A model generated the notes under the pieces. The model did no database searches. It worked only from the letters and a program-made list of their open reading frames with translations, and was not told where the DNA came from. This document shows, one piece after another, positions 21,987-55,002 of a stretch of DNA of 64,000 nt. The stretch covers positions 3,482,061-3,546,060 of the forward strand of contig RPFO01000065.1 of NCBI GenBank assembly GCA_009746045.1. Reading direction: 5' to 3'. The stretch's first letter is position 1, and each line of letters begins with the position of its first letter. Both the position numbers and the translations under genes were made by a program. The stretch is from Mesostigma viride (taxonomy: Eukaryota > Streptophyta > Mesostigmatophyceae > Mesostigmatales > Mesostigmataceae).

Positions 21987-22054
21987 GGGGAAGGTGCGTA
22001 AAACAACGGAACCGGAAGCGCGGGGGGAAGAGCGAGATGCGGACGCGGGGGTTT

Positions 22055-22100
22055 GGGGGGCGTGCCCCCCAAGCGGGGGTTTGGGGGGCGGCAGCCCCCC
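22055..22100. other. Paired G/C hairpins at the LINE-B array/body junction
   Basis: GGGGGG-CGTG-CCCCCC (about 22055-22070) and GGGGGG-CGGCAG-CCCCCC (about 22083-22100) lie between the monomers and the coding part. The second, with its flanks TTT and AACGC, is identical in LINE-A (36372-36396). Confidence 0.85.
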
Positions 22101-22110
22101 AACGCGGGGC

Positions 22111-22920: not shown

Positions 22921-23004
22921 ATATATATACGCCCTATATACACGCCCTGATCAAGCATGCTGTTTCCGGCCCCACCGTCTAGGTCATGTATATATATTCA
23001 TTGA

Positions 23005-23498
23005 TCCGGTCGGTTTTCCCCCACGCGAACATCCGGTCCGAGGATGCGGATGGCGCTGCCTTCTATTCCCCCAACCACCGGCCTGACATCGTGGTGCTGG
23101 ACTTTGAGGGGGGTGGCCGGCATCTGCTTATTGACGTTTCGGTGGCGCGGCCCTTGGCTCTTAGCCACGTGGCTGGGGCCTCCCTCACGGCAGGTTACAC
23201 GGCGGACCGGGCGGAGCGGGCCAAGCTCCTGGCCTACGGCGACGTCGGGCACCATCGTGTGGTGCCCTTTGTCCTGGAGGAGTTTGGGGCCATGGGGCCC
23301 CTGACCTCCGCCTTCTTCAAGGAGTGTTGCCGGCTCCGGGAGGACCGGCTGGACCTGGAGGGCCAGCGGGCCCCATGGTCGGCGCGGACCTGGACGTCAT
23401 ATTGGCGTCAGCGCTTGTCGGTGGCGCTGACTCGGGCCATGGCTGACATCATGCTCCGCCGTACGCGGGCTGATTTTGCGGTGCAGCAGGGCTATTAG
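23005..23498 (+). pseudogene. LINE-A ORF2 C-terminal fragment (restriction-like endonuclease)
   Basis: The frame holds HRPDIVVLDF and LLIDVSVARP, the PD-(D/E)XK core of the restriction-like endonuclease, then AERAKLLAYGDVG and the C-terminal tail ending ADFAVQQGY and TAG at 23498. The preceding CCHC motif and reverse transcriptase are missing because of 5' truncation. Confidence 0.85.
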
Positions 23499-23631
23499 GT
23501 TCCTCCCGTTAGGAGTTTCCATTGGTCTTATCGTAGTATAGAGCTTTGACATGGCTCTGTATATAGGTTTATAGCTGGGCGTTTGCTTTGGTTTGAGTGA
23601 TTTCACTCTGCTGTAAGTAATTATATTTTTA
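23005..23631 (+). mobile_element. 5'-truncated LINE-A copy with 15-bp target duplication
   Basis: It starts at TCCGGTCGG inside the endonuclease region and runs through the stop and 3' UTR to TAAGTAATTATATTTTTA. It is flanked by ATATATATTCATTGA at 22990-23004 and 23632-23646. The short length, polarity and duplication are what target-primed reverse transcription predicts. An insertion point in TATATA sequence is shared with other copies in this window. Confidence 0.9.
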
Positions 23632-23646
23632 ATATATATTCATTGA

Positions 23647-26250: not shown

Positions 26251-26464
26251 GCAAGCCTTTCGGATTTGGTACTAGATAAATCACTCGAGATCTGTGTGTA
26301 GGAGTACTACACACGTTCGATCGATATATGTTAAAAATATAATTACTTACAGCAGAGTGAAATCACTCAAACCAAAGCAAACGCCCAGCTATAAACCTAT
26401 ATACAGAGCCATGTCAAAGCTCTATACTACGATAAGACCAATGGAAACGCCTAACGGGAGGAAC

Positions 26465-27521
26465 CTAATAGCCCTGCTGCACCGCAAAATCAGCCCGCGT
26501 ACGGCGGAGCATGATGTCCGCCATGGCCCGAGTCAGCGCCATGCACCGACAAGCGCTGACGCCAATATGACGTCCAGGTCCGCGCCGACCATGGGGCCCG
26601 CTGGCCCTCCAGGTCCAGCCGGTCCTCCCGGAGCCGGCAACACTCCTTGAAGAAGGCGGAGGTCAGGGGCCCCATGGCCCCAAACTCCTCCAGGACAAAG
26701 GGCACCACACGATGGTGCCCGACGTCGCCGTAGGCCAGGAGCTTGGCCCGCTCCGCCCGGTCCGCCGTGTAACCTGCCGTGAGGGAGGCCCCAGCCACGT
26801 GGCTAAGAGCCAAGGGCCGCGCCACCGAAACGTCAATAAGCAGATGCCGGCCACCCCCTCAAAGTCCAGCACCACGATGTCAGGCCGGTGGTTGGGGGAA
26901 TAGAAGGCAGCGCCATCCGCATCCTCGGACCGGATGTTCGCGTGGGGGAAAACCGACCGAATCATGGCGAGCACCACCGTCAGGAGGACAGTGTGCAAAT
27001 ACAAATACCAATTCTGATTCTGTTGGCCCCCCATGCAGGCAAGGTAGTGAGTCCCCGTGGGATCCAGCGGCTGCCCACAGCTACCACAAGGCCGCCCGGC
27101 CGGAACAAGAGGCTGCGGGGCAAATAGCTGGTGCCGGAGCGCCACCGAGTAGTGGCTGGGAGCCAAGGCGAATGGGGGGGCCATGGGAAGAGCACGAAGG
27201 TACGCCGAGCCCACACTCCGCAAGGAAAGCGAGAACAGCCACGCACGTCCCTGGGCGTTGAGGTCCGCGAAAAGAGCAATCCAATCAGCCGTGTGCAGAA
27301 TACCCGCGTAGGTTTTCTGGTGTTTATCGATGACGCGAGCAGGGAATGCGGCGGGAGATTGAACGGAGGCGACCGAGGGAGTGCCGCGAGGGAGGTGGCG
27401 CTGTACCGCCTGAGCGGCACGGACGGGAGAACAGGCCTGCTGGATCTCAGCATAGGCCTCCTGGATGGCGGTGACGAAGGGCAAAGGGCTGCTGGGGTCC
27501 AGGAGGTCAGGCGCTGCCGTT
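26465..27521 (-). pseudogene. LINE-A ORF2 C-terminal part, frameshifted
   Basis: Continues the reverse transcriptase reading after the CACTA-type insertion. On the minus strand it has the thumb-side helices, a CCHC knuckle (CGSCGQPLDPTGTHYLAC, C-x2-C-x8-H-x3-C) and HRPDIVVLDF. A missing base in a C5 run (about 26857-26861; six in other copies) shifts the frame, and four extra bases near 26543 shift it again before the end at 26465. Confidence 0.85.
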
Positions 27522-30500
27522 CACTAGGAACTCAATTTCTGAGAAAATTCTCAAAACCCTCAATTTTCTCACCTTTTGTGAGAATTTTTTGAGAAAATTG
27601 AGAAAAATCTCAATTTTTTTCCGCAAACGCTAGGCAAAAAATCTCACCAGGGTGAGATTTTGGTGAGAAAAAGGGCGTTTTGGTGAGATTGGGGTGAGAA
27701 AAAACCCTAAAGTGAGAAAAAAGGTGAGAATGGGTGAGAAAAAGGCAGAAAGATTGAGAAAATTGAGAAGTTTCTCACCAACACGAGAAAAATCACTAAC
27801 ACGAGAAAAATCACAAGTCAACGTGGTGAGAAATTTCTCACCAAGAGTGTAACACGAGAAAAATCATTAGCTTTATTTCATGAAGTCCTTAACGTGAAAA
27901 AAAACTCAACCACTTTGATATGCATTATAGGGTGCACCACAAAGGTGCAATATAGGGTTCATACAATACACAGGCCTTGTTAAACACAGCTTAACAGGCC
28001 ATCATTCCAAACGAGTTGTTTTTTATTAGAAATATACGATTACAATCAAGATTTAGCCCCACGTTGGTTATCTCATCAAAATGTTTACATCATTGTGAAC
28101 AAAGGCGGCAAAAAGCTAGGCCTGTCATATTTTCTGCAGATGCTGCGACTATGACCATCTAATAATAACAGGCCCAATCTATATGCTTCTTCATCACGAT
28201 TCATGCTTCTTTGGACAGAGCCACAGGGCTGCCAGCCGTTCTCTATGGTCCTGCAGGCACACAGAGCACCGCAATTGAAGAGGACACCGGTACAGCAAGG
28301 CAGGGGGCGGACCAGTCAGGCGGCAGATCGTTGTTGCCCAGCAAAACATCCTATGGTGAAGTAGGTTATGCCTCAACCCCGCTAGATTGTCGGCAGTCAC
28401 TCAAGCAGGCATACAGAACGGTATAATATAGCCGGTCCAGTTAGTAGCCTGTGTAGCTGAATGAACAAAAGCGAAAGCATGCCAGTGAGGGCAACTGCAA
28501 ATAAGGAAAACATTACCTTGCAAAAACTGCTACTCTGATTGCTAACAAATAAAGGTATGGTTTGCAAAGGTGCCGCGCATTGGACGTTGACAGCAAATGA
28601 ATCGGAAGAGAAGGATTGAAAGCAATGGTTACCGACAGATTCACAAATACGAATTGAAACAACTAAAAAAGCGATTGCTCACCAAAAACTTTCACCGCGC
28701 TTCTATAGCCTTCGATGCCAACGACGTTCCTCGTCCCGTCTCTGCGATAGGGCCGCATGCTCCTCGGTCGCCGCATTGTCTTTAGACATGCACACGAAGA
28801 AAAAAATCGACGTACAAACCACAATACACAGCATACAAAAGAAACAAGCAGTGATTTGCATGGTGGTCAACACCATAACAAGAAATCGTTCGGAAGACAC
28901 CCTCTCAACGGCAGGTCCCCAACGACCAGTAAATTACAGAAGCATGACGAATACACTGGGCCAGACATTCCACCATATGAGGAAGAACGTGCTCACCTTA
29001 TGAGTTAAGAAAGCATGCAGGTCTGGAAGTTCGGTAGTGTATTTACCGTATCTTTCATCTCTACCGAATATGACTTCAATGCTTCTAAACGATGCCATTC
29101 ATGTCTCGTCCTCAATTTAAATCCTCTGTTCGACCTGAAAACTTCGATGGGTACTGCACGCACATAATCCAGTCAATCTACATGCCTTTTCAGCGCTTCA
29201 TCAATCTAGATATATAAGGTTGCAAGGTTGCATTATTGCTATAGACATCTTGCAGTCCCGTGATCGCGCCGATCGCCGACCTAGCTTCCCTGGCCCTTGC
29301 TTTGAATGTAGGAAGGACTCACACTGGGGAAACGATGCCTTCATCATCTTGTCGAGTCGCACCACATGAATGCAACGGTCACACGGCTCGCAACTCGGAA
29401 GGTCAAGCTTTGCAATGCCGGGCTCCTGAAATGAAGTTACGGTTACGCCGCTCAGTCTCCGGCAGCGATGTGTACAGCGTGTACATTTACCTTAGTATCA
29501 AGTCATAATGGCAAGCCATATGTCCATTCGTTTGAATTTTGCTGACGATGTACGGATTAGAATCACGTACCCAGGATTTTTCTCTGGCAGGGATGTGCAG
29601 AGCGTGTACATTTACCTTAGTATCAAGTCATAATGGCAAGCCATATGTCCATTCGTTTGAATTATGCTGACGATGTACGGATTAGAATCACGATCCCAGG
29701 ATTTTATTATTGTAGATGCCAATGGGTGTGCAGAGTGACATTGCAGTGTGATCTTCGCCCGGTATTGCCGTTGCGGAAAGATTCTGTCGCTTGGCCTGTA
29801 CAGTTCAAAAACTAGCGGTTGCCGCTGGTTTCGGATCGACGCCAGCAACCGACATGCTTTTGCGCCAACGGCCATAAACACATGTAGTAGTGCAGCTAGA
29901 ACTGCTTTTGGGTGTGGTCGACAGGACGTGATTACCCCACATTTCACTTCGCGGTTTGCGCTGGGAGTGTACAGCTAATTGATTCTGAAAGGTAATGGCA
30001 GGAGGATGGGAGGTTCGATGACAGGCTAGCAGTGGTTATGTATGCGGCTCTTAGGTTTGGAAGGGAATTTGTGGATTGGCCCATGGATTGGACTGGAGGA
30101 AGTCACCGGGACGACTTTCCTTTGCAAAGGCAGCGCCTTCGACCAGCTTTAAATTTCAGAGCAGAAAGCTGTCAAGGAGAAAGCTCAGGCAGGCGTATGA
30201 CTAACAAGCTAGTCCTCGTCGCAATGTTAGACTGCTATAGAAACCCGGCGGTTTCCTGCTATGACCTCAGGTGAGCAAGTGAGTGCTTTTATAACATGGC
30301 CATGGATTCTGTATGCCTCATGCGTTGCCAATATTAAAGAACTGCTCCCAGTGGTGTGCGGCGCGATGCAAGGGTTTCAGATGCACATAGCATTCGTTTT
30401 GAACTTGTTGAATTGAATGCTGCAGAAGGAAGTTTCGGAGTTGGAACTTGGAAGTGTGCGATGTGGAGAGACCTGGCCGGATGGCTTCAGATCCAGTCTT

Positions 30501-32187
30501 AACTGCACTTGTGCTTCTGGTTCTTACATCCTTTTACTGTTTGCATTGCGTGCTGCACTTTGTACATTTGTTGGCAGCGTCATGCCGTTAGACCGGCATG
30601 CGGCGGCCTATCCGTCTACGCTAGTAGAGCCTCTGGGTCTCTATGCTGGGTGATTGTTCTGCAGCATGGTGAGCGAACGTATGCCATTCCGTGTTGTCGG
30701 CATTGAGTTGCATGATCCTCTTTGATATCCAGAGCTTACTTGGCATCTTTAAAATGGTTCTCTCCAAATCTCCGCATGCCTGCAAACGAAATCCCTTTAC
30801 TGGTGAGAGCAATCAGGAAGTCTTTTCATTTTGAATTTTTTGTTCTCACTCGCTTGCAACACCATAGCAAGAGGTTTGCTGGATTTTCGTCTCATTCTTC
30901 TCTTTCCAGTGATATGCCTTGCCATTAGGAATACATGGCCTTGTTAGATGACTTTCTTCATCTCGTTGAGCAGTTCTGAGGCTTTGGAGGTTATTTCAAA
31001 CTTGATTGGCCTTGATTACTCAATGATTTGCTATCGACTAAACGCTTGTCGCTGGTGGCTTCTATTTGTGGCAATTTGAGCGTCCTTTGCTTTGTAAAGC
31101 CCGCCATCATTAGAACTTTCTATTTGCAGTTGCACGAACTGGTATGTTGCATCTTCTTGCATAGCAGCTATGCCTTGTAGGCTAGTATGCTCACCTATAC
31201 ATCTATTCAAAATATGGTGTGCGCCACCAGCCTTGCATTCCCTTTCACTTTAGTTTCCCTTTCTATGCCTGCATTGGGAGGCATGCATGACAAGCATTGG
31301 CATGCTTCACGTTTTGGAATGCATTTGAAGGTATAGATGTTTATCTGCAAGGGCCTGTTTTTTTTTCCCCTCTTGCATGCATGGATGTGTGGAATTGTAT
31401 GTTGCTTGGTTTGATTTGCCATACACATTTGCTGCATGGATTGTTAGGTGGTGATGAGCTCAAGATCATTGTAGAACGCTTACATCTATGTCAAGGATCT
31501 GATTTCTTTTCCTCTTGCATATATTGTGTCGGTTTGCTTGATTTCTTGCAGGCACCACGAGAATAAATTGCAAGCGGTCCCACTTTCAAGTTAGCATGTG
31601 ACGCCCTGTCGAGCGGCCCGCTTTGTTAGCTAGCTGCCATATAGTATTTGATGAAAGGCATTGAATGCCGAAGAAAAACAGTGTTGAATAGTTGAATCAA
31701 CGGGTTCCTGAGCTGTTAACAATTAAATTATTCAAACATTTAATGAAAAAATCATGATTGTTCGTGCTGTTTTGAACAGCGGTTGTTACTGGCACTGCAT
31801 GCATGTGTCTGCTGCCAGCATATTGCATTATGGGTGTGTTTTTCAGCGCTGTGTTTTCTCACTTTTCTCACTTTTCTCACGTCCTGATTTTCTCACTTTT
31901 CTCACGTCCTCATTTTCTCACTTTTCTCACGTATCACACCTCCCGTTTTTCTCACTTATCTCACGTCCAGTTTTTTTGAGATTTTTCTCACGTTTTTCCC
32001 CTTTTTTCACCTTTTTGGGGCAATCTCACCCGGGTGAGAAACGTGTTTTCTCACCCATTCTCACCCCATTCTCACCCTTTTTTCTCACCTTTCTCACCCA
32101 TTCTCACCCATTTCTCACCCTTTTTCTCACCTTTCTCACCCTTTTTCTCACCATTTCTCACCCATTCTCAAAGCCGAGTTCCTAGTG
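27522..32187. mobile_element. Second CACTA-type DNA transposon (4,666 bp), inside LINE-A
   Basis: Termini CACTAGGAACTC (27522) and GAGTTCCTAGTG (to 32187) are inverted, flanked by TT (27520-27521 and 32188-32189). The uninterrupted LINE-A copies at about 50310 and 53806 give the empty site and confirm both the boundaries and a 2-bp duplication (3 bp if the shared G is counted). Subterminal zones (27535-27870 and 31850-32175) are packed with GTGAGAAA/TTTCTCAC words, different from the TGTGACA words of the first element. No transposase was recognised; the interior has only short frames. Confidence 0.9.
27871..31849. other. Interior of the second CACTA-type element, no supported gene
   Basis: No frame over about 110 codons and no recognised domain. 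A direct duplication of about 100 bp, offset 124 bp, starts at 29467 and 29591 (GTACATTTACCTTAGTATCA, and TGGCAAGCCATATGTCCATT). An acceptor-like TTTCTTGCAG near 31550 precedes a short reading that ends in TAA; it may be the last exon of captured sequence, but no upstream exons could be linked. Confidence 0.6.
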
Positions 32188-33346
32188 TTGCCAAAAGGGG
32201 CAGGAGCCGGCAGCTTTCCGCCCACGACTGAGCGACGGAGCCCAAAAAGGCTGCTGGGGCCAGCCGGGCGGCACGAGTCAGACCGCAGCCACCCATCCGT
32301 GCAGGCAGGGAGGCAATGCGAATAGCATGTGGCGGGAGGTCGGGGCCCGGGACCAGCTGCGCCAAGGCCGACTGGATGCGTTCGTCGTGGCCCTCGGCGG
32401 CCAGCCGGACCTGAGCCGGAAGAGCGCCCCGGAGCCAGTGAACGACGCGAGGGTGAGCGCAAAACCACAGAAGCAGACCCTTGGTCTGCGAATCATGAAG
32501 GCGCGCAATCAAGGGCAGTACCTCAGTGCGTGCCTCGAGGGCGGCCCGCAGAGCATCGATGACAAACGCGGGGTCGCCAACCGGAACGCCGAGGACATCC
32601 AACCCATGGAGGCGCTCGTCCCGGCCCAAGAGCTGGGGCGGAAAGCCGGAGCAATCACCTTGGGGCGAGTACACCGCGCACTTGGCAAGGGTCAACTGGA
32701 GGTTGATGTCGGCCACCGCGGTCTGCAGTGCCAGCAGAGCCGCGGTGGTGTCCGGCACAGGGCCCAGAAGGTAGATATCATCCAAGTAGGCCTGAATAGC
32801 GACCGCCGGGTGGGCAGCATGGACCGCTTGGAGGCAACCCTGGAGGGGGGCGGCAAAGTACAGGGGTCCCAGGGGGTCCCCTTGCTGGGTGCCCGACCGC
32901 GACAGCAGGCCGCCGCGAGTGCCGTCCTCCATGATGTGAACCAGTTGGCCGGGCTGGCCGTAGCACACGGCTGTCCAAGCGTACAAGTCCTCGAAGGACT
33001 CCATGACGGCCGCAAACATGCTGGCGCGGGACAGACTGTTGAACGCGTTGTGGCAGTCGACCTTGACGACAGCGTGGGTGGGGTGGGCCTCGAGGTAGGC
33101 CTGCACCGAATGGATGAGGATATCCGCCCCGCCTGGAGTCGTCACCCCCAGCTGGGCCGCCACCGAGGTCTCACCCGCTGCGAGGGGCGGGCAGAAAAAG
33201 GCACGGAGCTCGGGCGCCTTTTGGCGGCAGATCACTTTGCCCACGAGCTTGCGGAGCACCTCACCGCAGGCGATCGGGCGCACCTTGCCCTCGGGGGGGG
33301 CAAGACACCCTTGAGCAGAGCGAGGAGGCGAGCGCCCGCTAACCAC
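32188..33346 (-). pseudogene. LINE-A reverse transcriptase domain, interrupted
   Basis: Minus-strand frame with KVRPIACGEVLRKLVGKVI, motif A VVKVDCHNAFNSLSRASM, the GTQQGDPLGPLYF segment and motif C YLDDIYLLG (codons at 32777-32788), so both catalytic Asp sites are intact. Thumb helices follow until the CACTA-type insertion cuts the frame at 32187. The upstream part of ORF2 is one frame off, joined at a C8 run (33293-33300 as G8 on the plus strand). Confidence 0.9.
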
Positions 33347-34206
33347 TCGCGCGCAGCGGGAGGAACGCGACCAGCCGCCAGGTCAATGAGGGTGTCAAAG
33401 AGAATGTCCTCGCCCCCATGCCCCACCAGGACCTCCAAGTGCTCGTAGCGCCAGCCCGACGGCCCGGTAGAGGAAGCCCGCGGGACCTCACGCATCACCT
33501 CCAGGAAGCAGTCGCGGTCCAGCCGGAGGGGGGCCGGCAGGGGGTCCGGCACGGGCAGCTGGAATCCGGGCTCCGCAGGGTGAAGAGCCTCCAAGGCCGC
33601 CAGGGTAGCCGCATTGGCGGGGGCGAGCTTGGCCATTTCCAAGCGGGTCATGGCCCGGCTGAGCTGCCCCTCGCGGACGAGGCGGATGACGTCGGCGGCC
33701 ACCCGCTCGAAGTTGACCTCCCCCGACAGCCGGGCCGTGCGCGGGGGCGGCACGCCAAACAGCCCCTCCCAGTCCCCCTGCAGAAAGCGTCGGCAACGGG
33801 CAATAACCGCACCCTGGAGGCCGCGCACACCACGCCCGAGAGGGGTGAGGAGCAGGCGGGGGGTCACCATGTGCAGTTTAAAGCCCAGCGGGTCGTCCGG
33901 AGCGGCGTGCATGCGCCGGAGAGAAACGATTGCACATTGCGCGAAAAGGCTACGCGCGCGGTGGGGGAGGTCGGTCAGGGTAGACGTCGGGTTGATGGCG
34001 CATGCATCCCAGGGAACCGTGTCAAGCCAACGCCAACTGGCCGAGTAGTCGGGCGGCGGGGGCTGGGAGCCGGGGGAGCCGAGGCGGGAGGGGGGGAGGG
34101 GGCCGGGACTGCTGGCCGGTTGAGGGGCCGTTGAGCAACACAGGCGCGCGCGTGCTGAGCGCGCCCGTGAATGGAGTACACCCGCTGGCAGTGAGCTTCC
34201 GGGCAC
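33232..34206 (-). CDS. LINE-A ORF2 N-terminal region
   Basis: The minus-strand frame includes DYSASWRWLDTVPWDACAIN, a helical region, and SSTGPSGWRYEHLEVL, the segment that precedes finger motifs in non-LTR reverse transcriptases. It overlaps the C2H2 frame by about 230 nt in another phase and ends shortly after LLALLKGVLPPP, where the reading should pass to the reverse-transcriptase frame. The same overlap and break occur in the plus-strand copy at 51790-52764, so the layout is probably ancestral. Confidence 0.6.
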   Translation of the reverse strand: MPGSSLPAGVLHSRARSARARLCCSTAPQPASSPGPLPPSRLGSPGSQPPPPDYSASWRWLDTVPWDACAINPTSTLTDLPHRARSLFAQCAIVSLRRMHAAPDDPLGFKLHMVTPRLLLTPLGRGVRGLQGAVIARCRRFLQGDWEGLFGVPPPRTARLSGEVNFERVAADVIRLVREGQLSRAMTRLEMAKLAPANAATLAALEALHPAEPGFQLPVPDPLPAPLRLDRDCFLEVMREVPRASSTGPSGWRYEHLEVLVGHGGEDILFDTLIDLAAGRVPPAAREWLAGARLLALLKGVLPPPRARCARSPAVRCSASSWAK

Positions 34207-34949
34207 CGGTAACAGCTCATGGCCTGCAGATCCGCCGCGCCGAGATCGGGGTGCACAGCGCGAAGGTGCTGGCAGAGGAGGTTACGGTTGTGGAACACAC
34301 CCGCACACGGGGACCCCGTGGGAAGCAGCACGGCACACCGGTGAAGGCCGTCGGCGGGCGCTGAGTGGCGGGGAGCGGCGCCAGCAAAGGCAGGACGTGG
34401 GGCCTGCGGCGTCTCCCCAGCCGGGCCGGCAGGCGCGCGCACCACGACCCGACCAGCGCCCGGCAGGCCCGCCGGGGCCACGGAGGAGGCAGTGCCCACC
34501 GGGGAGACCCCCAGCGGAGGGGGATCGAGAACGCCGGCGCCCCTCCCAGGGGGACTCGCCAGCGCGCCCGCGACCACCCCAGGCCCCGGCAACGAGGCCG
34601 GGGGCGGAGGCCGAGGGGTCGGGGAGGCAGCTGGCCCCGGGGCCCGGTGGGGACCCGGCAGGGGACCCAGCGAGACCGGGGGCGGGCCGAGAGGAAGCGC
34701 AGTCCCAGGGGGCGGCACAACAGCCCGGCACAACGGGCAGCGCGGCACGGAGTGGAGCAAGCTGCGCGCGATGCACGCTTGATGGAATGTGTGGCCGCAC
34801 GCGGGCAGGCGACACAAGCCATCCCCCGGCCGGAAGGGCTCAAGGCAGATGGCACAGGAGCCCGACTCGGGGTCGTCCCCCTCCAGAAGGGACCGGACAT
34901 GAGGGGGGGGCGGGTCCCAGCCGGCCTCCCAGCAACCCGGGAGCGGCAA
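33975..34949 (-). CDS. LINE-A RING-H2 and C2H2 frame, 324 codons
   Basis: On the minus strand: RING-H2 (CAICLEPFRPGDGLCRLPAC, GHTFHQAC, CPLCRAVV), a Pro/Gly-rich linker of about 100 residues, then C2H2-type fingers (HRCAVLLPTGSPCAGVF...LCQHLRAVH and YRCPEAHCQRVYSIHGRAQH). RING-H2 modules recruit E2 ubiquitin-conjugating enzymes. The fingers probably bind DNA at or near the target. The frame closes with RRLP and a stop inside the overlap with ORF2. Confidence 0.7.
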   Translation of the reverse strand: MPLPGCWEAGWDPPPPHVRSLLEGDDPESGSCAICLEPFRPGDGLCRLPACGHTFHQACIARSLLHSVPRCPLCRAVVPPPGTALPLGPPPVSLGPLPGPHRAPGPAASPTPRPPPPASLPGPGVVAGALASPPGRGAGVLDPPPLGVSPVGTASSVAPAGLPGAGRVVVRAPAGPAGETPQAPRPAFAGAAPRHSAPADGLHRCAVLLPTGSPCAGVFHNRNLLCQHLRAVHPDLGAADLQAMSCYRCPEAHCQRVYSIHGRAQHARACVAQRPLNRPAVPAPSPPPASAPPAPSPRRPTTRPVGVGLTRFPGMHAPSTRRLP

Positions 34950-35472
34950 TCTGGGCGCGCGAGAGGATGCCGACCGGTTGGTCAGCCGCGGGGTGCCATT
35001 CGTGCGGGATGCCTGCCAACTCCAGGATGTCGTGGAGGAAGGCAGAAACAGGCGTCCCCGCGGTTAGGGGCTGGGCGCGCCCGGCCGAGTCCACCAAGAT
35101 GGCCTGGCCGCCCTGAACCGCGATGGGGGCCCCGAACTCCACACGCAGCATGGCGGCCTGCGCCAGGCTGAGGGAGGTGATGAGAAAGCCCCCACTGGCA
35201 ACCGGGCCGGGAGGCGGGGCCTGGGCGTCCAAGAAGAGGCGAAGCTGCCGCGGGGACATGAGGCCCAGGTCGGCGCCGCCCGCGAGGTAGGCCGCCCGCA
35301 CCGAGACCTGTGCGTCTCGAGCCACCGCCGTGACGAACTCGACCACCTCCTGACCCACCCGCTCGTCCAGGGAAAGCAGCTCTTCCTGCCGGGCGGCCGG
35401 GAGATGCCACGGCAGCCGGCAGCCGGCGTGATATCCTTCCAAGACATACCCCCAAAGAGTCGAGGCCGTCAC
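34840..35472 (-). CDS. LINE-A middle region, unknown domain
   Basis: Minus-strand frame of 210 codons: TLWGYVLEGYHAGCRLPWHL, a helical part with VRAAYLAGGADLGLMSP, a beta-like part (FGAPIAVQGGQAILVDSAGR) and HDILELAGIPHEWHPA. No known family is recognised. Equivalent residues occur in LINE-B, so it is under some constraint. It overlaps the RING frame, and a frame change is needed to link them in this copy. Confidence 0.5.
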   Translation of the reverse strand: MTASTLWGYVLEGYHAGCRLPWHLPAARQEELLSLDERVGQEVVEFVTAVARDAQVSVRAAYLAGGADLGLMSPRQLRLFLDAQAPPPGPVASGGFLITSLSLAQAAMLRVEFGAPIAVQGGQAILVDSAGRAQPLTAGTPVSAFLHDILELAGIPHEWHPAADQPVGILSRAQIAAPGLLGGRLGPAPPSCPVPSGGGRPRVGLLCHLP

Positions 35473-35535
35473 CGGGGGGCGGCGGAAAGAAATGTCGCCC
35501 GCACCTGCGCAACTAGGGCCAGGAAGGCCGGGGGC

Positions 35536-36300
35536 CTAGGGAGCGAGGGGAAGGCGGCCTGGAGCCCGACCGCGTCCAGCAACAAAGGGCAGTACGCCCA
35601 AGAAAAGGTGGCGCGGCCCACCACGCCGACAATGTGCGAGGGCGGCCACGAGGTGAACGCGTGGGCCCGGGGGCCGCCGTCCCACGCGGCAAGGACGGGG
35701 GTGGCGGCTGGGTGGCCAACCGCGGCCGGGGGAAGGGAGGCCAGAGCGTCGGGGAGCGAGGGGCCGGGGGCGGGCGCCGGGGTCGCCAGGCCCGCCGGGG
35801 GTCGGCCGGGCCAGCCCAGGCGACAGCGCCGCGCCCCCGTCGGCGGGGCCAGGCGACGGGTGGGGCCCCGGGGCCGAGGGCGCCAGGGCCCGAGCAACGG
35901 CGGCCCCATCGGGCAGGCCACGGCCCGCCCCGAGGGCCTCGGCAGGGGGGCACACGGGGCAGGGGGCCGGAGCACCCAGCGGGGAGGGCAGCCCGGGGGC
36001 CCGCCGGGGGGGACAGCGCGGGCACGTCCAGGAGCCCGGCGGGACCCGGTAGAGCCGGGGAGTAAGACACTGCAAGTGCCACCCGGAATTGCAAGCATCA
36101 CAAACTAACATGTGGTGCCCGCGGTGCCCGCTCCGGCAGACCTCGCAGACCAAGGAGGGGGAGACCGGGGCGCCCGAGCCCCCCGCAGCCGGGTCGCCCA
36201 CCTCCGCAAGAAGGGCCGCAAGCCGAGAGGACCGCCGAGGCGCCAACCGGGGAGCGGGGGAGCCGTTGGGCGAAGGGGGTCGTGGGTCGTCCATGAACAA
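35536..36300 (-). CDS. LINE-A PHD-finger frame
   Basis: The minus-strand frame starts MFMDDPRPPSPNGSPAPRLA just after the G/C hairpins. The PHD finger reads CEVCRSGHRGHHMLVCDAC, GWHLQC, then W-T-CPRC (C4-H-C3). A long Pro/Gly/Ala-rich region follows. PHD fingers usually bind histone tails, so this could steer insertion to certain chromatin; that is inference. PHD domains are known from ORF1 of CR1-like LINEs, which have a different endonuclease. Confidence 0.75.
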   Translation of the reverse strand: MFMDDPRPPSPNGSPAPRLAPRRSSRLAALLAEVGDPAAGGSGAPVSPSLVCEVCRSGHRGHHMLVCDACNSGWHLQCLTPRLYRVPPGSWTCPRCPPRRAPGLPSPLGAPAPCPVCPPAEALGAGRGLPDGAAVARALAPSAPGPHPSPGPADGGAALSPGLARPTPGGPGDPGARPRPLAPRRSGLPSPGRGWPPSRHPRPCRVGRRPPGPRVHLVAALAHCRRGGPRHLFLGVLPFVAGRGRAPGRLPLAP

Positions 36301-36343
36301 TCAGGGCAGGCGTGGCAGCCACCGAGGGGGGGGCGGGGGGTGT

Positions 36344-36391
36344 GGGGGGCGGAGCCCCCCACGCGGGGGGTTTGGGGGGCGGCAGCCCCCC
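36344..36391. other. Paired G/C hairpins at the LINE-A array/body junction
   Basis: GGGGGG-CGGAG-CCCCCC (36344-36360) and GGGGGG-CGGCAG-CCCCCC (36374-36391) stand between the last monomer and the PHD frame. A diverged version occurs at about 48779-48830 in the plus-strand copy. The strand richness in G also allows quadruplexes. Confidence 0.85.
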
Positions 36392-36410
36392 AACGCGCTG
36401 CGGTCGCGGT

Positions 36411-39400
36411 ACCGCCTGCCGTCCGGCACTTTGAAGCCCGCCGGTGCTATAATTCCTATCGTCCACGCATGTTTTCCCCTGCCTCAAACCGCACGTTGCA
36501 TTTAAATCTGGAGCCCAAAATTCACTGAAAACGTGTGCCAGCCGGTAGCAAACTGGGCCAAGCTGCCACGGAATGGTGGTACCGCCTGCCGTCCGGCACT
36601 TTGAAGCCCGCCGGTGCTATAATTCCTATCGTCCACGCATGTTTTCCCCTGCCTCAAACCGCACGTTGCATTTAAATCTGGAGCCCAAAATTCACTGAAA
36701 ACGTGTGCCAGCCGGTAGCAAACTGGGCCAAGCTGCCACGGAATGGTGGTACCGCCTGCCGTCCGGCACTTTGAAGCCCGCCGGTGCTATAATTCCTATC
36801 GTCCACGCATGTTTTCCCCTGCCTCAAACCGCACGTTGCATTTAAATCTGGAGCCCAAAATTCACTGAAAACGTGTGCCAGCCGGTAGCAAACTGGGCCA
36901 AGCTGCCACGGAATGGTGGTACCGCCTGCCGTCCGGCACTTTGAAGCCCGCCGGTGCTATAATTCCTATCGTCCACGCATGTTTTCCCCTGCCTCAAACC
37001 GCACGTTGCATTTAAATCTGGAGCCCAAAATTCACTGAAAACGTGTGCCAGCCGGTAGCAAACTGGGCCAAGCTGCCACGGAATGGTGGTACCGCCTGCC
37101 GTCCGGCACTTTGAAGCCCGCCGGTGCTATAATTCCTATCGTCCACGCATGTTTTCCCCTGCCTCAAACCGCACGTTGCATTTAAATCTGGAGCCCAAAA
37201 TTCACTGAAAACGTGTGCCAGCCGGTAGCAAACTGGGCCAAGCTGCCACGGAATGGTGGTACCGCCTGCCGTCCGGCACTTTGAAGCCCGCCGGTGCTAT
37301 AATTCCTATCGTCCACGCATGTTTTCCCCTGCCTCAAACCGCACGTTGCATTTAAATCTGGAGCCCAAAATTCACTGAAAACGTGTGCCAGCCGGTAGCA
37401 AACTGGGCCAAGCTGCCACGGAATGGTGGTACCGCCTGCCGTCCGGCACTTTGAAGCCCGCCGGTGCTATAATTCCTATCGTCCACGCATGTTTTCCCCT
37501 GCCTCAAACCGCACGTTGCATTTAAATCTGGAGCCCAAAATTCACTGAAAACGTGTGCCAGCCGGTAGCAAACTGGGCCAAGCTGCCACGGAATGGTGGT
37601 ACCGCCTGCCGTCCGGCACTTTGAAGCCCGCCGGTGCTATAATTCCTATCGTCCACGCATGTTTTCCCCTGCCTCAAACCGCACGTTGCATTTAAATCTG
37701 GAGCCCAAAATTCACTGAAAACGTGTGCCAGCCGGTAGCAAACTGGGCCAAGCTGCCACGGAATGGTGGTACCGCCTGCCGTCCGGCACTTTGAAGCCCG
37801 CCGGTGCTATAATTCCTATCGTCCACGCATGTTTTCCCCTGCCTCAAACCGCACGTTGCATTTAAATCTGGAGCCCAAAATTCACTGAAAACGTGTGCCA
37901 GCCGGTAGCAAACTGGGCCAAGCTGCCACGGAATGGTGGTACCGCCTGCCGTCCGGCACTTTGAAGCCCGCCGGTGCTATAATTCCTATCGTCCACGCAT
38001 GTTTTCCCCTGCCTCAAACCGCACGTTGCATTTAAATCTGGAGCCCAAAATTCACTGAAAACGTGTGCCAGCCGGTAGCAAACTGGGCCAAGCTGCCACG
38101 GAATGGTGGTACCGCCTGCCGTCCGGCACTTTGAAGCCCGCCGGTGCTATAATTCCTATCGTCCACGCATGTTTTCCCCTGCCTCAAACCGCACGTTGCA
38201 TTTAAATCTGGAGCCCAAAATTCACTGAAAACGTGTGCCAGCCGGTAGCAAACTGGGCCAAGCTGCCACGGAATGGTGGTACCGCCTGCCGTCCGGCACT
38301 TTGAAGCCCGCCGGTGCTATAATTCCTATCGTCCACGCATGTTTTCCCCTGCCTCAAACCGCACGTTGCATTTAAATCTGGAGCCCAAAATTCACTGAAA
38401 ACGTGTGCCAGCCGGTAGCAAACTGGGCCAAGCTGCCACGGAATGGTGGTACCGCCTGCCGTCCGGCACTTTGAAGCCCGCCGGTGCTATAATTCCTATC
38501 GTCCACGCATGTTTTCCCCTGCCTCAAACCGCACGTTGCATTTAAATCTGGAGCCCAAAATTCACTGAAAACGTGTGCCAGCCGGTAGCAAACTGGGCCA
38601 AGCTGCCACGGAATGGTGGTACCGCCTGCCGTCCGGCACTTTGAAGCCCGCCGGTGCTATAATTCCTATCGTCCACGCATGTTTTCCCCTGCCTCAAACC
38701 GCACGTTGCATTTAAATCTGGAGCCCAAAATTCACTGAAAACGTGTGCCAGCCGGTAGCAAACTGGGCCAAGCTGCCACGGAATGGTGGTACCGCCTGCC
38801 GTCCGGCACTTTGAAGCCCGCCGGTGCTATAATTCCTATCGTCCACGCATGTTTTCCCCTGCCTCAAACCGCACGTTGCATTTAAATCTGGAGCCCAAAA
38901 TTCACTGAAAACGTGTGCCAGCCGGTAGCAAACTGGGCCAAGCTGCCACGGAATGGTGGTACCGCCTGCCGTCCGGCACTTTGAAGCCCGCCGGTGCTAT
39001 AATTCCTATCGTCCACGCATGTTTTCCCCTGCCTCAAACCGCACGTTGCATTTAAATCTGGAGCCCAAAATTCACTGAAAACGTGTGCCAGCCGGTAGCA
39101 AACTGGGCCAAGCTGCCACGGAATGGTGGTACCGCCTGCCGTCCGGCACTTTGAAGCCCGCCGGTGCTATAATTCCTATCGTCCACGCATGTTTTCCCCT
39201 GCCTCAAACCGCACGTTGCATTTAAATCTGGAGCCCAAAATTCACTGAAAACGTGTGCCAGCCGGTAGCAAACTGGGCCAAGCTGCCACGGAATGGTGGT
39301 ACCGCCTGCCGTCCGGCACTTTGAAGCCCGCCGGTGCTATAATTCCTATCGTCCACGCATGTTTTCCCCTGCCTCAAACCGCACGTTGCATTTAAATCTG

Positions 39401-40164
39401 GAGCCCAAAATTCACTGAAAACGTGTGCCAGCCGGTAGCAAACTGGGCCAAGCTGCCACGGAATGGTGGTACCGCCTGCCGTCCGGCACTTTGAAGCCCG
39501 CCGGTGCTATAATTCCTATCGTCCACGCATGTTTTCCCCTGCCTCAAACCGCACGTTGCATTTAAATCTGGAGCCCAAAATTCACTGAAAACGTGTGCCA
39601 GCCGGTAGCAAACTGGGCCAAGCTGCCACGGAATGGTGGTACCGCCTGCCGTCCGGCACTTTGAAGCCCGCCGGTGCTATAATTCCTATCGTCCACGCAT
39701 GTTTTCCCCTGCCTCAAACCGCACGTTGCATTTAAATCTGGAGCCCAAAATTCACTGAAAACGTGTGCCAGCCGGTAGCAAACTGGGCCAAGCTGCCACG
39801 GAATGGTGGTACCGCCTGCCGTCCGGCACTTTGAAGCCCGCCGGTGCTATAATTCCTATCGTCCACGCATGTTTTCCCCTGCCTCAAACCGCACGTTGCA
39901 TTTAAATCTGGAGCCCAAAATTCACTGAAAACGTGTGCCAGCCGGTAGCAAACTGGGCCAAGCTGCCACGGAATGGTGGTACCGCCTGCCGTCCGGCACT
40001 TTGAAGCCCGCCGGTGCTATAATTCCTATCGTCCACGCATGTTTTCCCCTGCCTCAAACCGCACGTTGCATTTAAATCTGGAGCCCAAAATTCACTGAAA
40101 ACGTGTGCCAGCCGGTAGCAAACTGGGCCAAGCTGCCACGGAATGGTGGTACCGCCTGCTGTCC
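36411..40164 (-). repeat. LINE-A 5' monomer array, part 1: 22 units of 170 bp
   Basis: Units recur at exact 170-bp steps (ACCGCCTGCC at 36411, 36581, 36751 up to 40151) with almost no substitutions. Each holds GTCCGGCACTTTGAAGCCCG, a TATAATTCC box and TTGCATTTAAATCTGG. Near identity suggests recent amplification or assembly copying. In element sense the array is directly upstream of the coding part, the place of the promoter. Confidence 0.95.
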
Positions 40165-41950
40165 ATTTACCCAGAGGCCTCAATTGAGGCCTTTTGGCTC
40201 AATTGAGGCCTTTTTCACCAAGGTCACATGGGGACGGTAATTTTGGCGGGAAGGACCGGTCCTATGGGTCGTCCGGCCCCAGTGGCGCGAATCTGGTATA
40301 TGTGCTGAGCGTCCTGACCCGTTGGGGTCGACAGGGGTCGACGGTTACTGAAAGATATGTGAGGTGGAAAAGTACCTATTTTGGCCACTTTCGTGCAACC
40401 GGACGACGAATTTTCACGAATGCACGACCATGGCGGCCTCGAGTAAAATAGACCGTATGGCCACGTTCGTGCATCATTTCGACCAGTAAGGAGCTCGTTG
40501 GGTAGATAATTTATCCGTGAAGCTAGCCCGATCGCTAAATGGGTCAAAAGTCAATTTCTAAATTCGTGGGGTCGTTATTTGTGTGCTGAATGCCAGGTTA
40601 GTGAAATTCAGCTGGGGCGTAATTGGCGTTGATAGTGCGCCTGCCAGCAGGCCGGTGCTTCGATATGCTGGGAAGAGACTAGCGGAACGGCGGGGGGGGA
40701 TGTTGGGGCAGCCGTGACTAAAGGGGCACTGGCTATTTTCGAGCCTTTTGGCGTGGATCCGTAGGTAGAGGAAGGGGTGTTTTTAGCTAGGAAAAACTGG
40801 GATGCGGACAATAAACGCGCGCGCGCCCCCAGCTATGGGAGCGCCATTATGCGAACAGCGCTGGTGAGGCCGCTGCAGCCGCTTTCATACGTCAATGGAC
40901 GACGCATGGGGCGTCTGTCCGGCCAGATTTGCGGGCTGCATCGCTTCCGGACAACTTGAAAACGCCGAGCTTGAACAGCTTTTCTAATGCAGCCACGTTC
41001 AGCGCCAGCGCATATGCGTGCCTAGTGATCCCGGGTGTGAGGGGTGTGAAAGGTAAGTGCGTCCTGGTGGTAGTAAGGTAATGGCATCGATTTGCTTGTG
41101 ATATCGTCAGTTTTTAGCTGCCTATCGGCGCCTAGTGCCGATGTGACGTAAGGCAGGTTACAGTACTTCGTGCAGTGCTCTGCGGCTGGCCCCCGCCTTA
41201 TAGACGTGTTTGCTTTCCATAAGAAGCATGGCAGTTCCTGCCATGCTGGCCATGTCTCAGGCAACCCTTGCAAAGCCCGAAATCAAGCTAAGAGGTCTAG
41301 TAGGCTGTGCAAATGTTGTCCAGTTATGCTTGTATATCTTGCCATGTGCTGTTCATCTGCTGCCGCGGCAGCAAACCCCTGTCATAATATACCGTAACAA
41401 CCTAGATATTGGGGCTATGTGAGTGAAGCTACGCGCTTGGAAGGTCACACCTATCATTATAATGCATGATCCTTGTGCGTGTTTGTAATAGAGGCTTTGG
41501 ATTCCTCATGGTTACGTGCAATACCCATGGCAGGCTATTGCTGCCTGCAGTGCTGCGCGACAGCCCCGGCCGTGCAAGTGTGTGTGAGGGGTCCCTTGGG
41601 GAGCATGCCATGTCATGCCATGCTTACCATGTCGTGGGGGAACCTCGTAAGGTCCAAAAGACACGTTACATGCAGACGGAACTGAGTACTGACGCCTTTT
41701 GGTCGCTTGTATCTATGGTCATGTTGTGTTGATGGTGCCGTCGCAGCGACAACCTGTTTTATTAAATCATAATTAAATATGTATTAGGGCTATATGACTG
41801 ATGTTAAGTGCTGGGAACCCCGAAACAATCATAATAATGCATGGCCTTCACTCATATTTGGAATAAAGTTTGTTGGCTCATTGTAATTACATGCAACACC
41901 CAATTTATGAAAAGGCCTCAATTGAGGCCTTTTTCCAGGTAGATAGACAC
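40165..41950. mobile_element. Palindrome-ended element with an 8-bp duplication, inside the monomer array
   Basis: Flanks are TGCTGTCC (40157-40164) and TGCCGTCC (41951-41958), 8 bp with one mismatch, and removal restores the monomer array in register. Both ends carry AGGCCTCAATTGAGGCCT, a perfect 18-bp palindrome (one copy plus a half copy on the left at about 40176-40210, one on the right at about 41914-41931). Sequence outside the palindromes is only weakly inverted (TACCCAGAGGCC against TACCTGGAAAAAGGCC). An 8-bp duplication is usual for hAT elements. The 1.8-kb interior has no recognisable gene. Confidence 0.7.
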
Positions 41951-44021
41951 TGCCGTCCGGCACTTTGAAGCCCGCCGGTGCTATAATTCCTATCGTCCAC
42001 GCATGTTTTCCCCTGCCTCAAACCGCACGTTGCATTTAAATCTGGAGCCCAAAATTCACTGAAAACGTGTGCCAGCCGGTAGCAAACTGGGCCAAGCTGC
42101 CACGGAATGGTGGTACCGCCTGCCGTCGATCCGGCACTTTGAAGCCCGCCGGTGCTATAATTCCTATCGTCCACGCATGTTTTCCCCTGCCTCAAACCGC
42201 ACGTTGCATTTAAATCTGGAGCCCAAAATTCACTGAAAACGTGTGCCAGCCGGTAGCAAACTGGGCCAAGCTGCCACGGAATGGTGGTACCGCCTGCCGT
42301 CGATCCGGCACTTTGAAGCCCGCCGGTGCTATAATTCCTATCGTCCACGCATGTTTTCCCCTGCCTCAAACCGCACGTTGCATTTAAATCTGGAGCCCAA
42401 AATTCACTGAAAACGTGTGCCAGCCGGTAGCAAACTGGGCCAAGCTGCCACGGAATGGTGGTACCGCCTGCCGTCGATCCGGCACTTTGAAGCCCGCCGG
42501 TGCTATAATTCCTATCGTCCACGCATGTTTTCCCCTGCCTCAAACCGCACGTTGCATTTAAATCTGGAGCCCAAAATTCACTGAAAACGTGTGCCAGCCG
42601 GTAGCAAACTGGGCCAAGCTGCCACGGAATGGTGGTACCGCCTGCCGTCGATCCGGCACTTTGAAGCCCGCCGGTGCTATAATTCCTATCGTCCACGCAT
42701 GTTTTCCCCTGCCTCAAACCGCACGTTGCATTTAAATCTGGAGCCCAAAATTCACTGAAAACGTGTGCCAGCCGGTAGCAAACTGGGCCAAGCTGCCACG
42801 GAATGGTGGTACCGCCTGCCGTCCGGCACTTTGAAGCCCGCCGGTGCTATAATTCCTATCGTCCACGCATGTTTTCCCCTGCCTCAAACCGCACGTTGCA
42901 TTTAAATCTGGAGCCCAAAATTCACTGAAAACGTGTGCCAGCCGGTAGCAAACTGGGCCAAGCTGCCACGGAATGGTGGTACCGCCTGCCGTCCGGCACT
43001 TTGAAGCCCGCCGGTGCTATAATTCCTATCGTCCACGCATGTTTTCCCCTGCCTCAAACCGCACGTTGCATTTAAATCTGGAGCCCAAAATTCACTGAAA
43101 ACGTGTGCCAGCCGGTAGCAAACTGGGCCAAGCTGCCACGGAATGGTGGTACCGCCTGCCGTCGATCCGGCACTTTGAAGCCCGCCGGTGCTATAATTCC
43201 TATCGTCCACGCATGTTTTCCCCTGCCTCAAACCGCACGTTGCATTTAAATCTGGAGCCCAAAATTCACTGAAAACGTGTGCCAGCCGGTAGCAAACTGG
43301 GCCAAGCTGCCACGGAATGGTGGTACCGCCTGCCGTCCGGCACTTTGAAGCCCGCCGGTGCTATAATTCCTATCGTCCACGCATGTTTTCCCCTGCCTCA
43401 AACCGCACGTTGCATTTAAATCTGGAGCCCAAAATTCACTGAAAACGTGTGCCAGCCGGTAGCAAACTGGGCCAAGCTGCCACGGAATGGTGGTACCGCC
43501 TGCCGTGCGGCACTTTGAAGCCCGCCGGTGCTATAATTCCTGTCGTCCACGCATGTTTTCCCCTGCCTCAAACCGCACGTTGCATTTAAATCTGGAGCCC
43601 AAAATTCACTGAAAACGTGTGCCAGCCGGTAGCAAACTGGGCCAAGCTGCCACGGAATGGTGGTACCGCCTGCCGTCGATCCGGCACTTTGAAGCCCGCC
43701 GGTGCTATAATTCCTATCGTCCACGCATGTTTTCCCCTGCCTCAAACCGCACGTTGCATTTAAATCTGGAGCCCAAAATTCACTGAAAACGTGTGCCAGC
43801 CGGTAGCAAACTGGGCCAAGCTGCCACGGAATGGTGGTACCGCCTGCCGTCCGGCACTTTGAAGCCCGCCGGTGCTATAATTCCTATCGTCCACGCATGT
43901 TTTCCCCTGCCTCAAACCGCACGTTGCATTTAAATCTGGAGCCCAAAATTCACTGAAAACGTGTGCCAGCCGGTAGCAAACTGGGCCAAGCTGCCACGGA
44001 ATGGTGGTACCGCCTGCCGTT
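41951..44021 (-). repeat. LINE-A 5' monomer array, part 2: 12 units of 170 or 174 bp
   Basis: Units start at 41951, 42121, 42295, 42469, 42643, 42817, 42987, 43157, 43331, 43501, 43671 and 43845. The 174-bp units contain an extra GATC (CCGTCGATCCGGC), absent from part 1. The array ends at the 10-bp target duplication at 44022. Confidence 0.95.
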
Positions 44022-44132
44022 TCGATATATGAAGCGTGAGACAACTATTCCGATACTAGCTACACTTTTCCAAATATTGCATATGGTGAAGTGAGGTATA
44101 TCAACGTGATTTGAGCTAGCAACTGACGTTAT

Positions 44133-46476: not shown

Positions 46477-46487
46477 GGCATGATGAA

Positions 46488-48759
46488 AAACATGCGTGGA
46501 CGATAGGAATTATAGCACCGGCGGGCTTCAAAGTGCCGGACGGCAGGCGGTCCCACCATTCCGTGGCAGCTTGGCCCAGTTTGCTACCGGCTGGCACACG
46601 TTTTCAGTGAATTTTGGGCTCCAGATTTAAATGCAACGTGCGGTTTGAGGCAGGGGAAAACATGCGTGGACGATAGGAATTATAGCACCGGCGGGCTTCA
46701 AAGTGCCGGACGGCAGGCGGTCCCACCATTCCGTGGCAGCTTGGCCCAGTTTGCTACCGGCTGGCACACGTTTTCAGTGAATTTTGGGCTCCAGATTTAA
46801 ATGCAACGTGCGGTTTGAGGCAGGGGAAAACATGCGTGGACGATAGGAATTATAGCACCGGCGGGCTTCAAAGTGCCGGACGGCAGGCGGTCCCACCATT
46901 CCGTGGCAGCTTGGCCCAGTTTGCTACCGGCTGGCACACGTTTTCAGTGAATTTTGGGCTCCAGATTTAAATGCAACGTGCGGTTTGAGGCAGGGGAAAA
47001 CATGCGTGGACGATAGGAATTATAGCACCGGCGGGCTTCAAAGTGCCGGACGGCAGGCGGTCCCACCATTCCGTGGCAGCTTGGCCCAGTTTGCTACCGG
47101 CTGGCACACGTTTTCAGTGAATTTTGGGCTCCAGATTTAAATGCAACGTGCGGTTTGAGGCAGGGGAAAACATGCGTGGACGATAGGAATTATAGCACCG
47201 GCGGGCTTCAAAGTGCCGGACGGCAGGCGGTCCCACCATTCCGTGGCAGCTTGGCCCAGTTTGCTACCGGCTGGCACACGTTTTCAGTGAATTTTGGGCT
47301 CCAGATTTAAATGCAACGTGCGGTTTGAGGCAGGGGAAAACATGCGTGGACGATAGGAATTATAGCACCGGCGGGCTTCAAAGTGCCGGACGGCAGGCGG
47401 TCCCACCATTCCGTGGCAGCTTGGCCCAGTTTGCTACCGGCTGGCACACGTTTTCAGTGAATTTTGGGCTGCAGATTTAAATGCAACGTGCGGTTTGAGG
47501 CAGGGGAAAACATGCGTGGACGATAGGAATTATAGCACCGGCGGGCTTCAAAGTGCCGGACGGCAGGCGGTACCACCATTCCGTGGCAGCTTGGCCCAGT
47601 TTGCTACCGGCTGGCACACGTTTTCAGTGAATTTTGGGCTCCAGATTTAAATGCAACGTGCGGTTTGAGGCAGGGGAAAACATGCGTGGACGATAGGAAT
47701 TATAGCACCGGCGGGCTTCAAAGTGCCGGACGGCAGGCGGTCCCACCATTCCGTGGCAGCTTGGCCCAGTTTGCTACCGGCTGGCACACGTTTTCAGTGA
47801 ATTTTGGGCTCCAGATTTAAATGCAACGTGCGGTTTGAGGCAGGGGAAAACATGCGTGGACGATAGGAATTATAGCACCGGCGGGCTTCAAAGTGCCGGA
47901 CGGCAGGCGGTCCCACCATTCCGTGGCAGCTTGGCCCAGTTTGCTACCGGCTGGCACACGTTTTCAGTGAATTTTGGGCTCCAGATTTAAATGCAACGTG
48001 CGGTTTGAGGCAGGGGAAAACATGCGTGGACGATAGGAATTATAGCACCGGCGGGCTTCAAAGTGCCGGACGGCAGGCGGTCCCACCATTCCGTGGCAGC
48101 TTGGCCCAGTTTGCTACCGGCTGGCACACGTTTTCAGTGAATTTTGGGCTCCAGATTTAAATGCAACGTGCGGTTTGAGGCAGGGGAAAACATGCGTGGA
48201 CGATAGGAATTATAGCACCGGCGGGCTTCAAAGTGCCGGACGGCAGGCGGTCCCACCATTCCGTGGCAGCTTGGCCCAGTTTGCTACCGGCTGGCACACG
48301 TTTTCAGTGAATTTTGGGCTCCAGATTTAAATGCAACGTGCGGTTTGAGGCAGGGGAAAACATGCGTGGACGATAGGAATTATAGCACCGGCGGGCTTCA
48401 AAGTGCCGGACGGCAGGCGGTCCACCATTCCGTGGCAGCTTGGCCCAGTTTGCTACCGGCTGGCACACGTTTTCAGTGAATTTTGGGCTCCAGATTTAAA
48501 TGCAACGTGCGGTTTGAGGCAGGGGAAAACATGCGTGGACGATAGGAATTATAGCACCGGCGGGCTTCAAAGTGCCGGACGGCAGGCGGTCCCACCATTC
48601 CGTGGCAGCTTGGCCCAGTTTGCTACCGGCTGGCACACGTTTTCAGTGAATTTTGGGCTCCAGATTTAAATGCAACGTGCGGTTTGAGGCAGGGGAAAAC
48701 ATGCGTGGACGATAGGAATTATAGCACCGGCGGGCTTCAAAGTGCCGGACGGCAGGCGG
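46488..48759 (+). repeat. LINE-A 5' monomer array, 13 units of 170 bp
   Basis: Same monomer as at 36411-44021, inverted, in element sense. Most units read GGCGGTCCCACC, where the minus copy has the equivalent of GGCGGTACCACC; one unit is a base short (48421). The joint with the element body (GGCGGTACCGCGACCGCAGC) is the same as in the minus copy. Confidence 0.95.
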
Positions 48760-48868
48760 TACCGCGACCGCAGCGCGTTGGGGGGCTGCCGCCGCCCAAA
48801 CCCCCCGCGTGGGGGGCTCCGCCCCCACACCCCCCAGCCCCCCCCTCGGTGGCTGCCACGCCTGCCCT

Positions 48869-54859: not shown

Positions 54860-55002
54860 GTTCCTCCCGTTAGGCGTTTCCATTGGTCTTATCGTAGTAT
54901 AGAGCTTTGACATGGCTCTGTATATAGGTTTATAGCTGGGCGTTTGCTTTGGTTTGAGTGATTTCACTCTGTTGTAAGTAATTATATTTTTAAAATATAT
55001 AT

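Follow-up and report, generated by a model that had tools for sequence, protein, structure and literature searches.

A tandem array of 34 monomers lies with a LINE inside one target duplication in Mesostigma viride

The window, by which we mean the whole stretch of 64,000 nucleotides of Mesostigma viride DNA that was analysed, contains several copies of a LINE, here called LINE-A, and part of a sister LINE, LINE-B. The following features are discussed below.

19807–22110, minus strand: LINE-B body, with matched PHD, RING and C2H2 regions.
22111–22921, minus strand: LINE-B 5′ array, 3.5 units of 231 bp; its outer edge adjoins ATATATATA.
22991–23646, plus strand: LINE-A copy 4 with its duplication; 5′-truncated (23005–23632), monomers absent.
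26321–26330: target duplication copy at the 3′ end of LINE-A copy 1, reading CATATATCGA in LINE orientation.
26331–27521, minus strand: 3′ part of the body of LINE-A copy 1, with the C-terminal reverse transcriptase (RT) region, putative CCHC and PD..D endonuclease motifs and the 3′ end ATTATATTTTTAA.
27522–32186: later CACTA-like insert, with inverted ends CACTAGGAACTC and a duplication of about 3 bp.
32187–36408, minus strand: 5′ part of the body of LINE-A copy 1, with PHD finger, RING-H2, C2H2-like region, N-terminal half of the RT and a G/C-rich 5′ leader.
36408–44020, minus strand: 5′ array of LINE-A copy 1, with 34 tandem units (170/174 bp).
About 40165–41950 (limits approximate): insert in array unit 12, with AGGCCTCAATTGAGGCCT near both ends.
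44021, minus strand: one extra base, between the right duplication copy and the first unit.
44022–44031: target duplication copy beyond the array, from direct reading and the flank-match count.
46487–48760, plus strand: LINE-A copy 2 array, 13 full units and one partial.
48761–51356, plus strand: body of LINE-A copy 2, which lacks about 2.65 kb internally and breaks off 145 nt short of its 3′ end.
51355–54993, plus strand: LINE-A copy 3, 5′-truncated, with a mosaic junction to copy 2.

LINE-A copy 1 is oriented on the minus strand, from 44020 to 26331, with the array first, followed by the leader, the body and the 3′ end. Direct reading of both outer edges of the insertion located the decamer TCGATATATG at positions 26321–26330 and 44022–44031. 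The 3′ end of the LINE (TTTTTAA, minus strand) directly abuts the copy at 26321–26330. The decamer occurs twice in the whole window, as compared to a mean of 0.02 in shuffled sequences. When matches to the 3′ flank were sought at 63,542 further positions of the window (offsets 0 to 3), they did not exceed 7 bp, and 8 bp were reached at none of these positions. The original prediction had placed a perfect 10-bp duplication around the LINE and its array, and this observation is confirmed as real and correctly located: the array lies inside the target duplication, at the 5′ end of the element. The right duplication had also been put directly beyond the last monomer. It indeed stands outside the array, but one base (44021) intervenes.

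The predicted number of 34 monomers was reproduced with two anchors. When cut at the unit start, 27 units are 170 bp long and six are 174 bp long (numbers 2, 5, 8, 9, 10 and 11 from the 5′ end); the remaining one, unit 12, is split by about 1.79 kb of inserted sequence. No differences exist among units 14 to 34, and the array contains three substitutions in total, confined to units 3 and 13. As had been claimed, the array makes up about half of the element, since the body measures about 5.4 kb and the array about 5.8 kb. The view that 34 monomers are unusual holds within the present sample, where none of the other nine sized arrays is as long, but not beyond it: the sections of PMC6454616 drawn on here report up to 50 monomers for a mouse L1.

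The CACTA-like insert (4,665 bp) lies inside the body of copy 1, at a site that is uninterrupted in copy 3. The N-terminal zinc fingers of LINE-A matched the Pfam families PHD (2.2e-10) and zf-RING_2 (RING-H2; 2e-11), and the LINE-type RT, searched on copy 2, matched RVT_1 (1.5e-9). In a PDB sequence search the best matches were LINE RTs, with weak E values of 0.67 and 0.76. Downstream of the RT, the motifs CGSCG..H....C and RPD..LLID were recognized by eye; copy 5 (72% identity) conserves both. We take the former to be a putative CCHC motif and the latter to belong to a putative restriction-like endonuclease (RLE; PD-X12-14-D). No profile or structure search picked up an RLE or a CCHC motif in LINE-A, the predicted fold having a pLDDT of 32.7, and no Pfam match to the APE-type endonuclease family was obtained in the LINE-A or LINE-B frames searched. 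Judged from its motifs, LINE-A looks RLE-encoding. In copies 1 and 3 the reading frame shifts at identical C-runs (within 32187–36408 and 51355–54993), reflecting either a source mutation in common or a systematic sequence error. No Rfam family reached its gathering score in the window, and the leaders gave weak matches at chance level only; a known RNA element in the leader or the units was rejected on these scores. Leader hairpins folded moderately better than shuffled sequences (z of -1.35 and -2.37). A search for relatives in viral contigs, prokaryote genomes and plasmids led nowhere.

In the array of copy 2, 11 of the 13 full units have a C at unit position 13, where copy 1 has an A. Copies 2 and 3 meet in a mosaic junction (window 51346–51376) that alternates between two LINE positions, which is what template switching would leave. 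A 9-bp duplication considered for the joined copies 2 and 3, AATATATAT, was rejected, being equalled at 106 of 340 positions near ATATAT, and copy 2 showed no other duplication of significance. Copy 4 has a 14-bp duplication, TATATATTCATTGA, at 22991–23004 and 23633–23646. A fifth, diverged LINE fragment (window 60045–60830; 72% protein identity) adjoins another LINE 3′ end and an ATATCG target. At the start of the window, positions 1–376 are occupied by a CCCTCT microsatellite of about 63 copies.

LINE-B resembles LINE-A in the PHD, RING and C2H2 regions (44–60% identity in the main matched stretches); its RT half was not found within the window. The 231-bp unit of LINE-B and the LINE-A unit have nothing longer than 9-bp words in common. 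A G/C-rich twin hairpin leader (36320–36400; 22040–22110) is conserved between the two elements despite their differing units. Since the leaders are alike but the units unrelated, the unit type would have been exchanged between related LINEs while the leader was kept. Repeats of the TGTGACATTTTGTGATA type are found about 7 kb apart, at 9935–10447 and 17277–17450, and may represent the subterminal repeats of a DNA transposon by which LINE-B was cut.

The search for LINE-A 5′ ends that had been proposed with the original prediction was performed on the assembly (439.9 Mb in 2,243 contigs). At least 494 candidates were obtained by the 3′-end search and at least 354 by the 5′-body search, 40 being scored in each case. 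We examined 40 further 3′ ends, the window's own excluded, 20 of them as 10-kb stretches and 20 as 1.2-kb stretches. Array units were present at the 5′ end in 7 of the 40 copies (2 of 20 and 5 of 20, respectively), the 1.2-kb stretches having been placed at the expected body start, where a displaced 5′ end would be missed. With the two window copies, C93, and C1480, whose 3′ end is absent from the expected place, the array-bearing copies seen amount to 11. The ten arrays that were sized hold about 1.7 to 34 units, those of C93 and C65 being taken from coordinates, and several are long (about 19, 15, 13, 11 and 9 units). The 3′ flanks of all 20 copies considered start with (N)ATA, most of them with TATATAT. 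A satellite beside which the LINE had inserted would also be long, tandem and homogeneous. However, the array stands on the 5′ side of the body, and it belongs to the LINE because the duplication lies outside it, because the unit directly adjoins the body start at one fixed junction in the seven other copies in which that start was seen (7 of 7), and because no unit was found elsewhere in the window, outside the LINE-A copies. A neighbouring satellite is thus scarcely credible, as the original prediction had argued. The array forms the 5′ part of LINE-A itself and is integrated with the body at TATATAT-containing targets. In two cases, L013 (2493–2884) and L058 (C125), a LINE-A array is fused to fragments of other LINE bodies that lie on its own strand; the L013 fusion lies within a duplication. 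Both fusions are likely template jumps.

At first look, the 20 10-kb stretches showed duplications of 10–14 bp in 11 copies, of 7–8 bp in three and of fewer bases in six. The six low-match copies are L013, L014, L016, L017, L020 and L023; the start of L020 had been set too far downstream, because the reference was split there. Among array-bearing copies, the duplication measures 10 bp in window copy 1, 10 bp with 6 extra bases in C1, 11 bp in C2, 9 bp with 9 extra bases in C65, 8 bp in C129, 7 bp in C93 and 6 bp with 9 extra bases in L014. L013 has 2 bp at the array edge, and 8 bp only if the fused 5′ LINE fragment of about 0.4 kb is counted in. Because the targets have TATATAT in common, own flanks were compared with foreign ones. 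Foreign flanks were as good as own flanks in 0 of 25 cases for the window copy and C1, in 1 of 25 for C2 and L014, and in 5, 8, 10 and 20 of 25 for C65, C129, L013 and C93, respectively; single matches of 7–9 bp in TATATAT targets prove little. For the eight array-bearing copies together, own flanks gave a sum of 69, and 1 of 5,000 permutations with swapped flanks was as good. Without L013, a post hoc case, 7 of 20,000 permutations were as good, and without both L013 and the window copy 54 of 20,000, some shuffles among so few copies being the true pairing itself.

To locate the 5′ ends within the unit, the assembly was searched for TATAT followed by 0–14 bases and the unit start. This pattern gave 28 rows at 15 distinct places. 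At 14 of them the 5′ end lies within a few bases of the unit boundary; in the one exception, C1945, it lies further upstream in the unit. These places represent about 11 independent 5′ ends, because three pairs have one flank in common and may be alleles or duplicates. With two control phases of the unit, the same pattern matched at 2 and 4 places. The preference of 5′ ends for the unit boundary fits a start site in each unit. In addition, both unit types have an A/T tract that starts 32 bp upstream of the unit boundary, AATTATA in LINE-A and AATTT in the unrelated LINE-B unit; this argument is post hoc, and other A/T tracts are present in each unit.

Two truncated copies with differing duplications and without monomers, L009 and L010, both begin inside the body at GCAACGGCAG, which resembles the unit start ACGGCAGG. 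Therefore, a sequence-directed stop is a live alternative for the clustering: the 5′ ends may mark an arrest of the RT at the ACGGCAG motif and not the start of transcription. The common start of L009 and L010, whose flanks differ, would be expected from such an arrest. Yet just two copies of this kind occur among the 20 10-kb stretches and there is no ACGGCAG motif at the LINE-B 5′ end, so that we consider an RT stop somewhat unlikely. The internal start site of L009 and L010 is also the position of the CACTA-like insert in copy 1.

The 174-bp units differ from the others by an additional ATCG at the unit boundary, an insertion that can be placed at 3 equivalent positions of the 170. An exact-flank pattern allowing 1–20 inserted bases retrieved six assembly rows with this variant, all six in the copy 1 array and none elsewhere. 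Full units read in seven other copies equalled the window's unit in 46 of 47 cases. Since the 174-bp variant is restricted to the copy 1 array, enlargement would have taken place there or in an unassembled parent. Private variants spread through one array would indeed mean growth or homogenisation in that array or in such a parent, and the array seems to grow where the element lands. The claim that the array was inserted with the LINE accordingly needs to be divided: the array belongs to the element, but the duplication does not establish a single insertion of 34 units, which is partly contradicted by a variant found only here.

We regard it as probable that LINE-A units are inserted with the body inside one duplication, that they are putative promoters which are lost and refilled, and that copy 1 reached 34 units partly by growth at this locus. 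Each 170-bp unit would act as an internal promoter, transcription presumably starting where one unit meets the next. Transcripts would begin at a unit start, and inserted copies would end there, one or more units being lost per round. The lost units would then be regained when the RT slips on the repeats or jumps between templates, or when the new site undergoes repair or unequal exchange.

Copying of all 34 units from one parent RNA and their joint insertion, with no local growth, would equally place the array inside the duplication. The diversity of the copy 1 array fits the age of the copy on this account, with three substitutions as compared to 5.6 expected from the private rate of the body (P 0.19); the homogeneity of this array was rejected as strong evidence, as this value does not separate the models. 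Against such a joint insertion, however, all six occurrences of the 174-bp variant in the assembly fall within this array, and the copy 2 variant, absent from copy 1, occupies 11 of 13 units. Moreover, private changes are scarcer in the copy 2 array than the 9.6 that would be expected from its body (P 0.004 for at most 2 and 0.014 for at most 3). On these grounds we find it improbable. Growth might conversely have occurred only after insertion, by unequal exchange or DNA replication slippage, reverse transcription being uninvolved. The variant units are scattered (2, 5, 8–11), as repeated exchange leaves them, and this model is held responsible for the 50-monomer mouse L1 case in the sections of PMC6454616 used here. 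But several copies have long arrays, and the LINE fragments fused at 5′ ends favour jumping during reverse transcription; an origin by DNA processes only is possible, if doubtful.

The array could also be rebuilt at each insertion, the RT or second-strand synthesis slipping or jumping at the boundary, where the 5′ end of the element lies, and so multiplying units on the spot; ATCG would then be trapped target bases, a fossil of an earlier 5′ end over which further units were laid down. The private ATCG equals target bases of the locus (CATATATCGA), but it is no plain copy of the present junction, because this reads ATCGAAACGG and not ATCGACGG. We give this explanation little credence. As for the unit number itself, near-identical units are difficult to assemble, and the frame breaks at C-runs suggest residual sequence errors. 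Nevertheless, the array has internal landmarks, namely the insert in unit 12 and the scattered 174-bp units, and an assembly artefact is very unlikely. Partial growth at the locus of an array inserted with its LINE thus remains our preferred reading.

Repeats at a LINE 5′ end are found in SLACS, which carries a variable number of 185-bp repeats there. The trypanosomatid CRE-clade LINEs (SLACS, CZAR, CRE1/2) combine RT and RLE, zinc fingers and one or two repeat regions, according to the part of PMC12278014 drawn on; LINE-A is like them in its RT, putative RLE, zinc fingers and repeat region. Their target is the spliced-leader gene, whereas LINE-A inserts into TATATAT-rich DNA. In the sections of PMC4640811 used here, RLE LINEs (R2, R4, NeSL/Utopia, HERO, Dualen) are described with N-terminal zinc fingers, RT, and a C-terminal zinc finger with RLE, and their clades with target preference, for microsatellites in some. 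LINE-A resembles them in its N-terminal fingers, RT, putative C-terminal zinc finger and RLE, and target preference; unlike for LINE-A, those sections mention no 5′ monomer array and no PHD and RING fingers. For the Chlamydomonas genome, L1, Dualen and Zepp-like LINEs are named, with no mention of 5′ monomer arrays in the portion of PMC8226300 considered. A limited search of the open-licence literature on algal or RLE LINEs with tandem repeats, RING or PHD fingers gave no description of LINE-A.

Mouse L1 elements (L1Md A, Gf, Tf) carry tandem 5′ monomers of about 200 bp whose number varies between copies. A common 5′ truncation is read there as the start site, and second-strand priming versus unequal crossing-over is left open (both from the sections of PMC6454616 drawn on). 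From the same sections, LINE-A is like mouse L1 in its tandem 5′ units, in their copy-variable number, in the unrelated unit types of related elements and in a preferred 5′ end, which in mouse lies inside the unit and is read as the start; the refilling mechanism is unsettled. LINE-A differs in its body with PHD and RING fingers, in the putative RLE motif downstream of the RT and in its TATATAT targets. Moreover, mouse L1 monomers have been tested for promoter activity, whereas the LINE-A units are putative promoters from 5′-end positions and A/T tracts. Overall, LINE-A would represent L1-like 5′ monomers, an architecture known from mouse L1, in a LINE that looks RLE-encoding.

How units are regained that each copying round should lose is an open question in mouse L1 (PMC6454616, in the sections used here). 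LINE-A differs in type from mouse L1. Its near-identical units number about 2 to 34 per copy, many of its insertions are recent and have duplications that can be read, local growth is marked by private variants, and the sister LINE-B has unrelated units; these features jointly make the question of unit refilling testable in LINE-A.
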